From: Lactobacillus xylocopicola | GTDB lineage: Bacteria > Bacillota > Bacilli > Lactobacillales > Lactobacillaceae | Reading direction: 5' to 3' | NCBI RefSeq assembly: GCF_033096005.1 | Contig: NZ_AP026803.1 | Coordinates: 1,571,876-1,635,875, forward strand | DNA length: 64,000 bases | Part shown: one piece after another, positions 37,351-63,350 of the stretch | Layout of the letters: each line of letters begins with the position of its first letter | Position numbering within the stretch: position 1 is the stretch's first letter | Notes under the pieces: generated by a model | The model's input: the letters and a program-made list of their open reading frames with translations, nothing else | Told to the model about the DNA's origin: nothing | Database searches by the model: none | Made by a program: the position numbers and the translations under genes

Positions 37351-37521
37351 AAACTACATCCGGTAAATAATCTGAACCACATTTTGTGAATTTTTCGCCC
37401 TGCAATATACAAAATCGCTTGACATTTGACTCACTATTTTAATTAAATTTTTGCTTGTTTACCACAATATCTCGTATTAAACTAAATAAAGATCTATATA
37501 TTGTATTTAAGAAAGAGCGTG

Positions 37522-38169
37522 ATGACAGTTATTGTTTTAAGTGGGCCAATTGGAGCCGGTAAATCCAGTTTAACCAGTATTCTAGCTGAACACTTGGGGA
37601 GTCAAGCCTTTTACGAGGGAGTTGATAATAATCCTGTACTGCCTTTGTATTATCAAGACATGAAACGCTATACGTTTTTGCTTAACATCTACCTTCTTAA
37701 CCACCGCTTAGCGCAGATTAATCAGGCAATCAAAGAAAAAAATAGTGTTTCCGACCGTTCTATTTATGAAGACGCACTCTTTTTTCAAATGAACGCTGAA
37801 AATGGCGTCGCCGACCCAACGGAATTTCAAATTTACGACAGCTTGCTAAAGAACATGATGGAAGATACACCGGGTAACCCAAGCAAAAAGCCTGACTTGT
37901 TGATTTATATCCATGTATCACTTGATACCATGTTAGAGCGCATAGAACGACGGGGCCGCTCCTTTGAACAGCTCAGTACCGATCCGAGTTTAAAAGACTA
38001 CTACGCCCGCTTACTTCGTTACTATGAACCGTGGTACCAAAACTATGATGCATCACCAAAGCTGGAGATCGACGGTGATAAGTTCGACTTTATTGTCGAT
38101 GAAGCTGCTAAAAGAGAAGTAATCAGACAAATTGATCATAAATTACGCGTAAGTGATAATTTAGAATAA
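37522..38169 (+). CDS. Deoxynucleoside kinase, dGK-like subunit
   Basis: 215 residues from ATG 37522. [13 protein letters not shown] is the P-loop, [14 protein letters not shown] holds the catalytic Glu-Arg-Ser (DRS) motif, and [12 protein letters not shown] is the lid. The sequence is close to the deoxyguanosine/deoxyadenosine kinase pair I know from L. acidophilus R-26, which works as a heterodimer for deoxynucleoside salvage. The first gene resembles the dGK subunit; this order is from recall. The second kinase gene follows 12 bases later. Confidence 0.92.
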
Positions 38170-38181
38170 AGAAGGATCGTG

Positions 38182-38868
38182 ATGACAGTTATTGTTTTAA
38201 GCGGGCCAATTGGAGCCGGTAAATCTAGTTTAACCAAAATTTTAGCTAAGTATTTAGGAACTAAGCCTTTTTATGAAAGTGTTGATAATAATCCCGTATT
38301 GCCACTTTTTTATGCGGATCCCCAAAAATATGCATTTTTACTTCAGGTGTTCTTTTTAAATACACGTTTTCGTAGCATTAAGGATGCTTTGACAGACGAC
38401 AACAACGTCCTTGACCGTTCAATCTACGAGGACGCCCTCTTCTTCCAAATGAATGCCGATATCGGTCGAGCAACTACGGAAGAAGTAGACACGTATTATG
38501 AGCTTTTAAACAATATGATGGGACAGCTTGAGCACATGCCTAAGAAAAACCCCGACCTCTTAGTTCATATTAATGTTTCTTACGACACCATGATCAAACG
38601 CATTCAAAAGCGCGGGCGACCATATGAACAATTAAGTTATGACGCTACCCTGGAAGATTACTACAAACGTCTGCTGCGTTATTACGAACCTTGGTATGAA
38701 AAGTATGACTATTCACCTAAAATGGAAATCAATGGTGATGAACTCGACTTTGTGTCCAATGATCACGACTTGCAGCTTGTTTTAGACCAAATAGTTGCCA
38801 AATTAAAAGACCTGGGTAAGCTCCCTACTTCTTGGGACAAACCAACGAATATCAAAATTTCACAATAA
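38182..38868 (+). CDS. Deoxynucleoside kinase, dAK-like subunit
   Basis: 228 residues from ATG 38182, with GAAGGATCG upstream. Same fold as its neighbour: [31 protein letters not shown] and [12 protein letters not shown], with a longer C-terminal tail. The first 18 codons are almost identical in DNA to those of the upstream gene, pointing to duplication with later homogenisation. Partner subunit in a heterodimeric salvage kinase by analogy. Confidence 0.92.
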
Positions 38869-44265: not shown

Positions 44266-44444
44266 CCGGAATTAATAGTTAATGGTGGGATAATAGGCAT
44301 TGCTTAATTGTTTTAGTTTAAGTATCTGTTCATAACCAATCAAAGTATACCTTTACTTTTTATTGGTATCGCCTTATCATATACTAATAAACTCAACAGA
44401 TAGTAACTCAAGCTACTTAAATTTCAGAAATAGGCGGGTCAGTG

Positions 44445-44738
44445 ATGGAAAAGCAAGCTCAAAGATGGTATAACCGCTATAGCGGAACTTTAGTGTTCTT
44501 CAGCTTAGCAGTCTTCATCAGTTTTAATTCTAATTTCTTTCCTTATACTATTGCAGGTCGGCTATGCGCCCTAGTCTGGCTCCTGGCCTTTACTTTTGCA
44601 ATGTTTACAGGCGAATACCTAGTTAGCCATGTTGAAGTAACAGGCGAAGTGCGCTACTTGCAAGCCACCTTGATGACTAGTAATTGGCTGCTTGCAGCTG
44701 TAGCGCTAGTGCTTTTTACCCTGTTCTTCAGTAAATAG
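44445..44738 (+). CDS. Small hypothetical membrane protein
   Basis: 97 residues from ATG 44445 after AGGCGGG. Three membrane segments: GTLVFFSLAVFISFNSNF, LCALVWLLAFTFAMFTGEYL and WLLAAVALVLFTLFF. No family recognised. It is followed by an unrelated bidirectional terminator that also ends the opposing peptide gene. Confidence 0.65.
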   Translation: MEKQAQRWYNRYSGTLVFFSLAVFISFNSNFFPYTIAGRLCALVWLLAFTFAMFTGEYLVSHVEVTGEVRYLQATLMTSNWLLAAVALVLFTLFFSK

Positions 44739-44797
44739 CCCCTTTATGCGCCCTCTTGCTGGCTAAGCTCGTAACTTATCAGTTTCAATTGATGCAC

Positions 44798-44834
44798 AAA
44801 AAAAGCGTTAGTTCTTACCACTAACGCTTTTTTT
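44798..44834. terminator. Bidirectional terminator, also that of the minus-strand peptide unit
   Basis: AAAAAAAGCGTTAGT and ACTAACGCTTTTTTT form a near-perfect stem over a short loop. Confidence 0.92.
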
Positions 44835-44868
44835 AATTTAGCAATTATTTAATAACTGCTAAATTAGA

Positions 44869-44928
44869 TTATAAAACACCCAAAAGGTATTGCATAACCA
44901 ACTTAAGAATATCTGTAAAAATTTTCAT
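44869..44928 (-). CDS. 19-residue amphipathic peptide gene, copy 1
   Basis: Codes MKIFTDILKLVMQYLLGVL, too short for routine gene calling. AAGGGGTG lies upstream, TATAAT at 44982-44977, and a strong terminator follows. Promoter, leader (AGGAGGCAATAGCCTATCT), ribosome site and the MKIF start all match the divergent unit at 45550, so selection acts on the frame. The peptide would form a helix with one hydrophobic face. Membrane-active toxin, modulin-like peptide or signal are all open. Confidence 0.7.
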   Translation of the reverse strand: MKIFTDILKLVMQYLLGVL

Positions 44929-44982
44929 TATTCACTACACCCCTTACTATTAAGATAGGCTATTGCCTCCTGTTATATTATA

Positions 44983-45497
44983 GCTTTATAAGAAATAAAA
45001 AACCAGCCTTTATTTGCTTTTATTTTTTTATTTAGCTTTAAAAATTTAAAAATTAGCAATTTTCACCACCATAATCTGGGTAGAATACCATGATTACTGG
45101 GTTATTTCTCACCCAGTTGTTGACCCGAAATTAAGCGAATCAAAAATTTATTGCTAAAAAATTGTTGTTGTCGAGATGAGTGCCCAGGCACATCTTCTGC
45201 TTATTAGGAAAATGAGAGTATAGCTAAAATGAGTACTGACGCTGCATAAAATAACCCTAGTTAGTGTTATCGCCTTCCACCGACTGGAACATAAATGAAT
45301 ATAAACTCTCTGTTTCCCAAAACTTACAGTAGAAACTCAAGCAACTGCCGTAAGTGGCTGTACGGCAGCTTCGCCTTAGATCTAGTCTCCTTTACTAGAA
45401 GGAATTGGCATGATTGATTTTGCTGAATTAAAGCTACTATTGTTATAATCAGATTCGAATAGTAAAATAAAGACTGGTTTTTTAATTTTTCTAAAGT
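44983..45497. other. Region between the two divergent peptide units
   Basis: About 500 bases with no recognised gene. It contains hairpins CTGCCGTA/TACGGCAG near 45345-45370 and GTGCC/GGCAC near 45185, and a 12-codon frame at 45411 after AGAAGG. An antisense or regulatory RNA could lie here, but nothing proves one. Confidence 0.3.
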
Positions 45498-45549
45498 TAT
45501 AATACCAAAGGAGACAATAGTCTATCTAATTATGGGAGGTGTGTTATAT

Positions 45550-45612
45550 ATGAAAATCTTTAAAGAAATCTTTAAGATGATTATGGAATTCCTTGGTTAC
45601 ATTGCTATCTAA
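45550..45612 (+). CDS. 20-residue amphipathic peptide gene, copy 2
   Basis: Codes MKIFKEIFKMIMEFLGYIAI with GGGAGGTG eight bases upstream and TATAAT at 45498-45503. The leader AGGAGACAATAGTCTATCT matches copy 1 closely. Helical, with hydrophobic I/F/M/L on one face and Lys/Glu on the other. The terminator that should follow (AAAAAAGCGTTAGT at 45647-45660) keeps only its left half, because the IS3 element starts at 45666. Confidence 0.72.
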   Translation: MKIFKEIFKMIMEFLGYIAI

Positions 45613-45665
45613 TTCATTAATTATTTCAGCTAGTTGCTGAAATTCAAAAAAGCGTTAGTTTTTTA

Positions 45666-47135
45666 TGTGAACCCCGAAGTTAAGACAACTTCGGGGTTTT
45701 TATGATGACTAAATTATCTAAACAAGACAAAATTGATATCTTTAATCTTTGGCAAAACTATCAGGTTGGGTCTAAGGAATTGAGTCACCGTTACCGGGTT
45801 AATCCATCGACTATTAATTATCTCTTGGCCCTCATTAAGCGTCATGGCTTAGTTATTTTGGATCAGCCATATACAAGCTATTCAATTGCGTTTAAAGAGC
45901 AGGCGATTAGGCGGGTGCTAGTCAAACACGAGTCCACGTATCAAGTATCACTTGATCTGGAACTAAAAAGTTCCGGCATGTTGGCCAATTGGCTGCGCCA
46001 ATACCGTGAAAATGGGTATAATGGCGTTAACCACCAGAAAGGACGACGACGCCATGACCACCAAAAAAGAGCAACTGATCAAGCAGGAGAACCACCGCTT
46101 AAAGCAAGAGAACGAGCGCTTACGCCAGCAGAACTTGCAGCTGACCATCGAGAACGAATTCGTAAAAAAATTGCAAGCTTTAGTCGACCAGCGGGCCAAG
46201 AACCGCAAGCCGCGGAAATAGCCCAGGCAGTTACCGAACTAAAACACGAACTCAAAGTTAGTGTGACCTTTATTCTTGATACCATTAATGCCAATCCTGA
46301 CCTACCACACTTGTCGCGCAGTAATTACTACTACACGCTTAAGAAGAGCCATCAGGATCAAGACAACGAAGCCGTAATGGTAGAAATCAAGGGCATCTAT
46401 GAAGAACATAAACATCGTTTGGTTACCGCCGCATTACCCTGGAACTCAGGCGGCGTGGCCTAATAATCAATCACAAGAAAGTGCAACGCCTGATGAGCAA
46501 GCTAAAACTCTTTGGCTTAGTCAGTAAACGCTGGCACAAGTATTCGAGCTACCGCGGTATCCAAGGACCAATCAAGCCCAACTTGGTTAAACGCAATTTG
46601 GGGGCGATTTACCCTGAGCACAAGTGGTATTCAGACGTGACTGAATTTAAATTAAAGGGTCAGAAGACTTACCTGTCACCCATCATTGACGGCTGCACGC
46701 AGGAGATTATTGCTTACACCATTTCACGTAGCCCTAACCTCAAACAGACCATGGACATGTTAAGGCAGGCCTGGCTCAAGCACCCAGGTTTGAACGGTCT
46801 GGTCTTTCACACGGACCGGGGTTGGCAATACCAGCACCCGCAATGCCAAGCCTGGCTTAAAGACCACGGCATCGACCAGTCCATGTCACGCAAGGGCAAT
46901 TCCTTAGATGACGGACTGATGGAAGGCTTCTTTGGCATCTTAAAAAGGGAAATGTTCTACGGCTTTGAACAAAGTTTCAAGAATATAACTGTACTAGAAG
47001 AAGCAATCAGAAGGTATATTACATACTACAATACCAAAAGAATCAAGACCAAACTAAAAGGACTAACCCCGCTTGAATATCGGGAGCTAGTCCTCAGCCA
47101 AAATTTATTAAACTGTCCTAATTTTGGGGTTCACA
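45666..47135 (+). mobile_element. IS3-family insertion sequence (IS150-like), inactive
   Basis: About 1470 bases. The terminal repeats are TGTGAACCCCGAAGTTAAGACA on the left and the complement of TGTGAACCCCAAAATTAGGACA on the right (18 of 22). It carries orfA (helix-turn-helix) and orfB (DDE, IS3 type). No target duplication is visible at the ends; the flanks look deleted. Confidence 0.88.
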
Positions 47136-47158
47136 TCAATGTTACTCGGTTTTTTTAG
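45702..47158 (+). pseudogene. IS3-family transposase orfA/orfB with two frameshifts
   Basis: orfA starts MTKLSKQDKIDIFNLWQNYQ, then switches frame near 46063-46068, where six A replace an expected five, before continuing as KEQLIKQENHRLKQENE to TAG 46219. orfB starts in the natural minus-one frame (AQAVTELKHELKVSVTF) but loses one T at 46418-46420 inside HKHRFGYRR, then continues as SKLKLFGLVSKRWHKY, PEHKWYSDVTEF and the DDE residues to 47158. Two independent indels in homopolymers make the element dead unless helped in trans. The last stop lies past the right terminal repeat. Confidence 0.88.
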
Positions 47159-47197
47159 GGGTTTTTAATTTTTAAGCGCTTAAGCCGGCGCCTGTTC

Positions 47198-47578
47198 TTG
47201 ACCAGTAACTTTTTAATTTCGACTATTTTAATGCTGATTTTAGCCTTAAACCCTCACTCTTCACCAACATTCAAGCTAGTACTTTTTGCGATTTTTGCGA
47301 TCATCTTGTCTTCCGGTCTCGTTTTAGATTATCCTTACCCAACCGAATTATTCGACGGCAAGGTGCAAGCTAGCGGGGGCGGCGTCTGCATTACCATTAG
47401 TCGCTTTGGTGCAGCTGCCGGAACCTTTCTTTTACCAGTTCTAACCAGAGTCGGTGGCACCAGTTTGGCAATCCTGGTTTGTGCGGCAGTTTTGTTTAGC
47501 GGTTATCTTGTTTGCTTATTCTGGGCCCCTGAAACTTCACCTAAGTATTTAAAGCGAAGCCATCAAAAAGGCCGCTAA
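47198..47578 (+). pseudogene. C-terminal fragment of an MFS transporter
   Basis: 126 codons from a TTG, with no ribosome site. It covers about four membrane segments (LISTILMLILALN, LVLFAIFAIILSSGLVLD, ISRFGAAAGTFLLPVL, LAILVCAAVLFSGYLVCLF) and a normal MFS tail, APETSPKYLKR. About the first 320 residues expected of an MFS transporter are missing, and the break lies at the right end of the IS. An IS-linked deletion is the simplest cause. Confidence 0.75.
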
Positions 47579-62492: not shown

Positions 62493-63350
62493 TTAATTAC
62501 TTAATTTATTCTCTTTAAGAAATCGCTCTAATTCTTTGCCGTACTCTGGCATACCTAAGAAAATAACTATCTTGACTGATTTTTGGCATTCATCTATGTA
62601 AATCGAGTTACCAGTTGTGTGATACTTAACGAAGTTTTTAAGTAAGAGTAGTAGATTTTTATGAAAAAATAATTCCGGACGATTCGGAAACGACTTGGCC
62701 ATGACAAAAAGGGATTTAGTTTCGGCATATCTCTTATTTTCAATACACAAAAACAACAAATTGGTAATAATTCCTAATACTCTTATTTGAACATCTAAAC
62801 TATTGCTAGCACTGAATTTTTTTATAGCTTTCCGGGCAATCAAGAAATTACTGTCAAGGTCATATAGTCGCATAAAATTACAATAGGTTGCTAAAGTTTG
62901 CTGGTCAAAGTCACTAATATTAAATATCCTGTTTCTAATTGCCGACTTGGTTTTTTCGTCTAGGTCATCAATGTTATTGTTTACCAGGGCTATGTAACCT
63001 TTAACTAGAGTTAATAAATTATCTTTATTGGGTAATCGACCCTGTTCAAGTAATGTTTTGATGTGCTCAAGTTTACTAAGCGAGCTTTCGTAATAGGCCT
63101 CATTGATTAACCTTTTTAATTCATATTCATGGTTATACTGCAGACTTTTTTCCAGATTGATATTTTCAAAAAACTCCGCCACGGAGATGCCATTATAATC
63201 GAGCAAATTAATCAGGTCATCCGCTGCAATCCGGTTGAGACCCTTTTCGATTTTAGAATAAAAAGACGGACTAATTGCAGTTCCAGCCCACTCTTTTTGG
63301 GTTTTATTGGCTAGTAACCGATAATGCTTTAACAATTCATTGGTTTTCAT
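62493..63350 (-). CDS. Rgg/GadR/MutR-family transcriptional regulator
   Basis: 285 residues. Residues 1-62 are a helix-turn-helix of the XRE type (LKHYRLLANKTQKEWAGTA, SPSFYSKIEKGLNRI). The rest is a helical repeat (TPR-like) domain typical of Rgg proteins (SLQYNHEYELKRLINEAYY, LLLLLKNFVKYHTTGN). Rgg proteins usually sense short peptides imported by Opp. Neighbours suggest the bacteriocin operon or the 17-residue peptide as targets. It points away from dnaA. Confidence 0.88.
   Translation of the reverse strand: MKTNELLKHYRLLANKTQKEWAGTAISPSFYSKIEKGLNRIAADDLINLLDYNGISVAEFFENINLEKSLQYNHEYELKRLINEAYYESSLSKLEHIKTLLEQGRLPNKDNLLTLVKGYIALVNNNIDDLDEKTKSAIRNRIFNISDFDQQTLATYCNFMRLYDLDSNFLIARKAIKKFSASNSLDVQIRVLGIITNLLFLCIENKRYAETKSLFVMAKSFPNRPELFFHKNLLLLLKNFVKYHTTGNSIYIDECQKSVKIVIFLGMPEYGKELERFLKENKLSN

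Follow-up and report, generated by a model that had tools for sequence, protein, structure and literature searches.

Paralogous divergent units predicted to encode short amphipathic peptides in Lactobacillus xylocopicola

Among the short helical peptides of bacteria, those of the PSM-alpha type are leaderless, amphipathic and encoded in operons, and the ibs genes are present in several copies per genome. The PSM-alpha types are described as helices of 20-25 aa, and the PSMs leave the cell through Pmt, an ABC transporter dedicated to them (PMC5501909). On the helix of TisB, a narrow strip holds four charged residues whose signs alternate, and the 19 residues of IbsC are enough for a membrane toxin (PMC8309996). 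In the short hydrophobic SHP pheromones, an acid residue precedes the C-terminal part, which becomes the mature signal (PMC3679016).

Here we analyze a 64,000-nucleotide stretch of the Lactobacillus xylocopicola genome (the window), in which two small divergent units invite comparison with all of these peptides. The reading that we prefer, and to which the sequence analysis leads us to assign a probability of roughly 40%, is that the units are a duplicated and co-regulated pair encoding short leaderless peptides; these would form amphipathic helices with a membrane as their site of action, most likely the cytoplasmic membrane of the producer itself.

Layout and signals of the two units

An earlier note on this DNA had claimed two units on opposite strands that have in common a TATAAT box, a leader, a ribosome site and a peptide beginning with MKIF, and all of this is present in the sequence as claimed (Table 1). 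The paralogy of the units is real: in a blastn search of the source genome with unit 2 as the query, unit 1 aligns with 75% identity over 195 nt (E 9.6e-28). The promoter boxes are separated by about 450 bp and transcription runs outward, leftward from unit 1 and rightward from unit 2, the pair being placed between a gene for a 98-aa membrane-protein-like product (44442-44738, +) and an IS element. Above the upstream box, 8 of 24 positions are identical, and the onset of homology at the box is abrupt; from the box through the -10 hexamer the identity amounts to 35/40, in the leader to 31/45 (2 gap columns), in the first 15 codons to 34/43 (MAFFT, 2 gap columns) or, ungapped and calculated from 9 differences, to 36/45, in the 15 columns that follow to 8/15, and in the 3' region to 41/51 (3 gap columns). 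The folding of the central region between the promoters is not clearly beyond the chance level (z -1.1 and -1.9, with 13 and 5 of 100 shuffles equally good), and short matches to this region were detected in 2 other genomes. At 44860-45665, the G+C content is 31%, compared with 41% for the whole window; this does not prove that the DNA is foreign, given that other 900-bp stretches of the window go down to 28%. Elsewhere in the window, at 37501-38868, there are two adjacent, similar tandem frames, which resemble deoxynucleoside kinases.

The best-conserved piece of the units is AAATAAAGRCTGGTTTTTTA, located directly upstream of, and overlapping, the position of the -35 hexamer. Whether read as TGGTTT (17-nt spacing) or as CTGGTT (18-nt spacing), the hexamer agrees with the consensus at only 2/6 positions within conserved surroundings, a combination that suits an activated promoter, and we infer that both units are transcribed from promoters of this kind. 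Without mismatches, the box AATAAAGRCTGGTTTTTTA (also given as AATAAAGRCTGG) occurs at two places in the genome, which are the units, and one further place matches with 3 mismatches; the reversed control pattern yielded 4 matches.

The leaders, AGGAGGCAATAGCCTATCT in unit 1 and AGGAGACAATAGTCTATCT in unit 2, have the common start AGGAGRC-AATA-GYCTATCT, for which the full-length folds (in the case of unit 2, extending into the IS element) predict the same hairpin of 7 pairs and a bulged A. The R-Y pair of this putative hairpin is G-C in unit 1 and A-U in unit 2, that is, one compensatory pair, which, coming from two sequences, lends it little support; folded alone, the leader of unit 1 retains 4 of the hairpin pairs and that of unit 2 adopts a different structure. 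In the 1.64 Mb source genome, the leader pattern has two exact places, again the units, and at 1-2 mismatches, 9 places versus 6 control matches; both of its matches in viral contigs (2) fall in coding-looking sequence.

Table 1. Features of the two units and the adjoining insertion element (positions in the window)
Feature	Position	Strand	Sequence or basis
Unit 1 coding frame	44869..44928	-	MKIFTDILKLVMQYLLGVL, 19 aa + stop
Unit 2 coding frame	45550..45612	+	MKIFKEIFKMIMEFLGYIAI, 20 aa + stop
Unit 1 ribosome site AAGGGGTG	44938..44945	-	sequence; AGGGG precedes ATG
Unit 2 ribosome site GGGAGGTG	45534..45541	+	sequence
Unit 1 -10 box TATAAT	44977..44982	-	promoter scoring
Unit 2 -10 box TATAAT	45498..45503	+	promoter scoring
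Unit 1 upstream promoter box AATAAAGGCTGGTTTTTTA	44996..45014	-	genome pattern scan and alignment
Unit 2 upstream promoter box AATAAAGACTGGTTTTTTA	45466..45484	+	genome pattern scan and alignment
Unit 1 predicted leader hairpin AGGAGGC-AATA-GCCTATCT	44953..44971	-	full-transcript fold
Unit 2 predicted leader hairpin AGGAGAC-AATA-GTCTATCT	45509..45527	+	full-length fold
Unit 1 3' hairpin, 16-nt arms, 94% complementary	44834..44866	-	hairpin search and fold
Unit 1 terminator-like hairpin AAAAAAAGCGTTAGT/ACTAACGCTTTTTTT, bidirectional	44798..44834	-	perfect 15-nt arms, A-/T-runs
Unit 2 3' hairpin ATTTCAGC-TAGTT-GCTGAAAT	45623..45643	+	sequence and fold
Unit 2 terminator, first arm only	45646..45659	+	second arm missing
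IS3-family element in unit 2 terminator	45665..47138	+	integrase core domain
Central region between promoters	45016..45464		no ORF of >=60 aa; no fold clearly above chance

The peptide frames and the search for relatives

The two peptides are identical at 8 of 19 aligned residues, with the N-terminal part conserved, the last 5-6 codons aligning poorly and the C-terminal residues different; the side-chain charge is +1 in each. On a helical wheel at 100 degrees per residue, the check suggested in the earlier note, the polar residues 2, 5, 6, 9 and 13 indeed cluster, at 40-140 degrees, that is, within 100 degrees. The hydrophobic moments, 0.495 for unit 1 and 0.511 for unit 2, were reached by 24 and 86, respectively, of 20,000 shuffles that preserved the composition and the first Met. 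The window contains 482 ATG frames with lengths of 16-40 aa. In 113 of them, the mean hydrophobicity of the first 18 residues exceeds 0.3, and within this hydrophobic pool the two peptides take the top two places by moment, places that, between paralogs, are not independent; the third is a longer reading of unit 2. The ribosome-site word found in both units is present in 11 of the 482 frames. These statistics support the earlier proposal of membrane-active peptides. Both products are predicted to be small hydrophobic, helical membrane peptides, a trait of type I toxins, as well as leaderless amphipathic helices close to the range of about 20-25 aa that is a trait of the PSMs, at 19 aa (one residue below it) and 20 aa.

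The conservative nature of the differences between the peptides had been taken as a sign that the frames are selected, and in this respect, the comparison is suggestive, but weak by itself. The first 45 nt differ by 9 substitutions, 2 synonymous and 7 non-synonymous. Under random substitution, the frame remained open and its BLOSUM sum was no lower in 11-12% of the trials, and in 4-7% it remained open with the polar/hydrophobic class of every residue preserved; the moment of the partner was reached in 1.8% of the open trials that started from unit 1 and in 27% of those from unit 2. The class pattern is kept at 15/15 codons in the proposed frame and at 9/14 and 8/14 in the other sense frames; of the antisense frames, the one in register retains 14/15 and the other two 10/14. 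With values of 0.04-0.12 in the neutral simulation, the substitution pattern alone is suggestive of coding, not proof, and the amphipathicity ranking is the stronger argument for the frames. Because no homologs were found, selection was judged from the paralog pair only.

The best reading of the searches is that the units are lineage-specific: they are conserved as paralogs, but no convincing relative was identified outside the source genome in any set, which in this sense is the outcome that the earlier note had named as refuting its proposal. The sets comprised 75 genomes of the genus, 397 of the family and 395 of the order, with one genome per species; they overlap and include the source genome, those for the family and order are samples, and public collections may omit records close to the source genome. 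A blastn search of the 75 genus genomes with unit 2 produced 17 rows, 2 of them from the source genome itself and the other 15 only 19-51 nt long, with none of the latter unit-like by eye when viewed in one orientation. The exact peptide pattern was found, among the 397 family genomes, in the source genome only. A two-row profile recovered, at E <=10, 34 rows in 27 of the genus genomes, 32 of these rows foreign, and 2 foreign rows each in the family and order sets, one of the family rows being already among the genus rows; none of the family and order rows was convincing, and the two at the order level were set aside as antisense to a gene, presumably a thioredoxin-like one. When 29 weak profile matches (28 of the 32 from the genus and one from the family) were reoriented, none had a start with a ribosome site giving a frame below 60 aa, and 28 of the 29 overlap a frame 88 or more codons long.

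The wider collections yielded the same picture. The peptide pattern matched at least 118 stretches in genome_contigs and 23 in viral_contigs, and among the 141 matches listed, none of the 93 frames of <=45 aa appeared similar by eye. Plasmid records contain no match to 44700-45720 by blastn or to either peptide by tblastn; in phage records, the unit 2 peptide found no tblastn match, and blastn with 44740-47200 found the IS only. A single match to PDB sequences, at E 0.47, was set aside. There were no NCBIfam matches at E <=10 for either peptide (unit 1 extended by one upstream residue), a search whose power is limited by the short length, and no PADLOC family matched; Pfam LisH_TPL (E 0.14, padded unit 1 only) and PHROG 33842 (E 0.31, unit 1 only) are not credible. 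In Rfam, no family reached its gathering score, and the sub-threshold matches, among them Listeria rliI (21.5/45 bits, E 0.0067, in one of two scans) and MicC (28.6/90), were set aside because they are driven by terminator hairpins. No occurrence of MKIFTDIL or MKIFKEIF was found in the collection of papers searched.

The 3' ends, the insertion element and the history of the locus

The similar end hairpins reported for the two units are complete in unit 1, where the arms of the terminator-like hairpin occupy 44798-44812 and 44820-44834 (it falls outside the rules of the terminator scan and so is unlisted there), but not in unit 2, which has only the first terminator arm because the IS3-family element sits there. 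This element shows 76.7% identity to one annotated as IS3-family on a plasmid of Lactobacillus helsingborgensis, and 28 of its 33 relatives in plasmid records come from Lactobacillus. The hairpin at its left end, AACCCCGAAGTT/AACTTCGGGGTT with T's, may now serve unit 2 as a terminator. There are 12 matching rows for the element in the source genome, and the left or right ends were examined for three other copies, where they read TGATGTGAACCCC/GGGGTTCACATCA. Two of these copies (L237; L238/L240) sit between the complementary arms of intrinsic terminators, the second behind a gene that, by reading, looks like rpoC, and the third, degenerate copy (L239/L241) has no terminator-arm flanks. The element seems to favor intrinsic terminator loops, a preference which suggests that unit 2 once had a working terminator. 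Its transposase reading (45702-47158) seems to involve more than one frame change ahead of the integrase core frame at 46481.

On the right, the IS abuts directly the interior of an MFS gene, of which the remnant at 47139-47578 covers residues 307-441 of 441 by tblastn and a few codons more by reading (from about codon 300 to the end). The frame of this remnant is disturbed near its start; 441-aa relatives (L206, L208) follow the 98-aa gene in the genus. The neighborhood, where a leaderless bacteriocin might be expected to have its immunity or transport genes, consists of a Xan_ur_permease gene, with nearest relatives about 77% identical, the 98-aa gene, the IS and the MFS fragment. The 98-aa gene belongs to no family (no Pfam match at 0.01; best NCBIfam E 2.3), and its product has matches in 11 of the 75 genus genomes, the source genome counted. 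Clear orthologs (E <1e-20) exist in 8 of the 10 others, and in 7 of these 8, the MFS gene comes next, its start, where clear, lying about 80-150 bp past the 98-aa gene, with the units absent between. Among the seven, two (L209, L213) have an internal deletion in the MFS gene, one (L207) an unclear start and one (L211) an in-frame stop in the 98-aa frame; in the eighth genome (L212), a transposase-like frame follows the 98-aa gene, and near L214, the one of the two weaker matches that was read, there is no such MFS gene in the stretch examined. The units and the IS thus lie between two genes that adjoin each other in the relatives. In the simplest history, the units arrived or were born at this site, the IS then entered the terminator of unit 2, and an IS-adjacent deletion extended into the MFS gene.

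Possible functions and comparison with described systems

Under the preferred reading, that of a co-regulated pair acting in the producer's own membrane, a regulator or growth signal would act at the conserved box, which would stand in for a good -35 hexamer, and the mRNA, with hairpins at both ends, would be translated. In the predicted helix, hydrophobic on the rest of its surface, K2, T/K5, D/E6, K9 and Q/E13 would line up in a narrow polar strip; the length of the helix would be barely enough for entering or spanning the bilayer, and accumulation of the peptide might lower the membrane potential or the permeability barrier in a TisB-like manner. Given that no convincing antisense RNA gene was found, regulation would be mainly transcriptional. 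Against this reading, amphipathic helices can also occur as inert membrane anchors or secreted surfactants. A more specific, and in its entirety unlikely, version is a two-peptide module of this lineage, in which the divergent micropeptides would be activated jointly, carry polar strips that match, and cooperate with or oppose each other in the membrane, under the control of the box and the 5' hairpin, not of antisense RNA, and without a recognizable antitoxin, exporter or receptor. An attenuator of the MFS gene was considered and rejected: on the strand of unit 1, no gene follows it.

The main rival, doubtful in our estimate, is that the products are leaderless peptides of a modulin-like (PSM-alpha-like) or bacteriocin-like kind, which would be secreted and, as surfactants, lyse cells or promote spreading. 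The length of 19-20 residues, the missing leader, the strong amphipathicity, the charge of +1 and the existence of two variants all agree with a PSM-like nature; on the other hand, Pfam, PHROG, NCBIfam and PADLOC offer no credible family match, and no exporter or immunity gene was recognized in the islet, so that the modulin-like role raised in the earlier note is not established. Nor is the type I toxin-antitoxin system raised there, an improbable reading in which an antisense RNA arising in the leader/central region, at the 3' ends or elsewhere would silence the genes of toxic peptides. A small hydrophobic helix, hairpins at both mRNA ends and local duplication would be expected of such a system, and candidate antisense promoters lie opposite both start codons (TTTTCA-17-TACTAT at 44922-44950, +, 8/12; TTTTCA-16-CATAAT at 45556-45529, -, 9/12), from which transcripts would oppose some 15 nt of each leader before entering the central region, somewhat like IstR-1, which pairs upstream of the tisB frame (PMC8309996). 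There are, moreover, matching candidates in the leaders (44950/44952, +, 9 and 8/12; 45528, -, 9/12) and one at 45647-45620 (-) that would cover unit 2. However, the 8 promoter-like sites compare with 4.6 +/- 2.6 in shuffles, which is the chance level, such sites being expected in AT-rich DNA; matching places for candidates are expected between paralogous DNA, and those in the leaders are directed away from the peptide frames. No complementary third locus turned up in the source genome at E 0.01 (blastn of unit 2; 10/15 candidates scored), and the leader pattern is exact only at the units, its near-matches hardly standing out from the control. The NCBIfam search gave no Fst, Ldr or Lpt match and tblastn none in plasmids, with the limit on power that the short length imposes.

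It is distinctly unlikely that the units are regulatory RNAs, with frames that are incidental or only modulate the RNA, as in a dual-function sRNA. Conservation is higher in the promoter than in the frame and in the 3' region about the same as in the frame, and the pairing of the leader hairpin can survive a two-sided change; what argues against this reading is the coincidence, in both frames, of a ribosome site with top-ranked amphipathicity, together with the Rfam result. Very improbable, finally, are short hydrophobic signal peptides sensed by an Rgg-type regulator, for which the length, the hydrophobicity and the common promoter box could be cited, along with four Rgg-like matches in the genome, one of them above the family cut-off; another of the four, a frame of 289 aa in the window at 62514-63125, scores 34.4 bits versus a cut-off of 36.9. 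Yet no rgg gene adjoins the units, the box lies near none of the four Rgg-like places, and the conserved part of the peptides is the N-terminus, not the C-terminus, so that a role as signals, also suggested earlier, is not established.

Should the frames be translated, the pair would represent a further, apparently orphan type of micropeptide in Lactobacillus and provide a simple test case for the control of membrane-active peptides without an evident antisense RNA, as well as for the origin of such genes within a single species. The frames were noticed only through the duplication, which reveals which of the short frames is kept.

The PSM-alpha peptides of staphylococci are likewise leaderless and amphipathic, but operonic, whereas here there are two separate divergent units with no family match. 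They are helices of 20-25 aa, agr-controlled and Pmt-exported (PMC5501909). The Lpt peptides of Lacticaseibacillus plasmids are small, helical, membrane-permeabilizing peptides of lactic acid bacteria, too, although they are 29 aa long and plasmid-borne, with a hydrophobic center and charged ends, and the units have neither a plasmid nor a family match (PMC11352940). The SHP pheromones of streptococci resemble the peptides in being short, hydrophobic and often divergent from rgg, but adjoin rgg and have a C-terminal mature signal, neither of which holds for the units (PMC3679016). With IbsC of Escherichia coli, the likeness lies in a helical membrane peptide of 19 aa (PMC8309996), and the difference in the antisense SibC control of IbsC, compared with peptides here that have a polar strip and units for which no antisense gene is convincing. 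TisB of E. coli is 29 aa long, under LexA control and paired with the antisense IstR-1, unlike the twin copies of 19-20 aa without a convincing antisense gene; what it has in common with the two predicted peptides is that its helix is amphiphilic, with charges of alternating sign in a narrow polar strip (PMC8309996).
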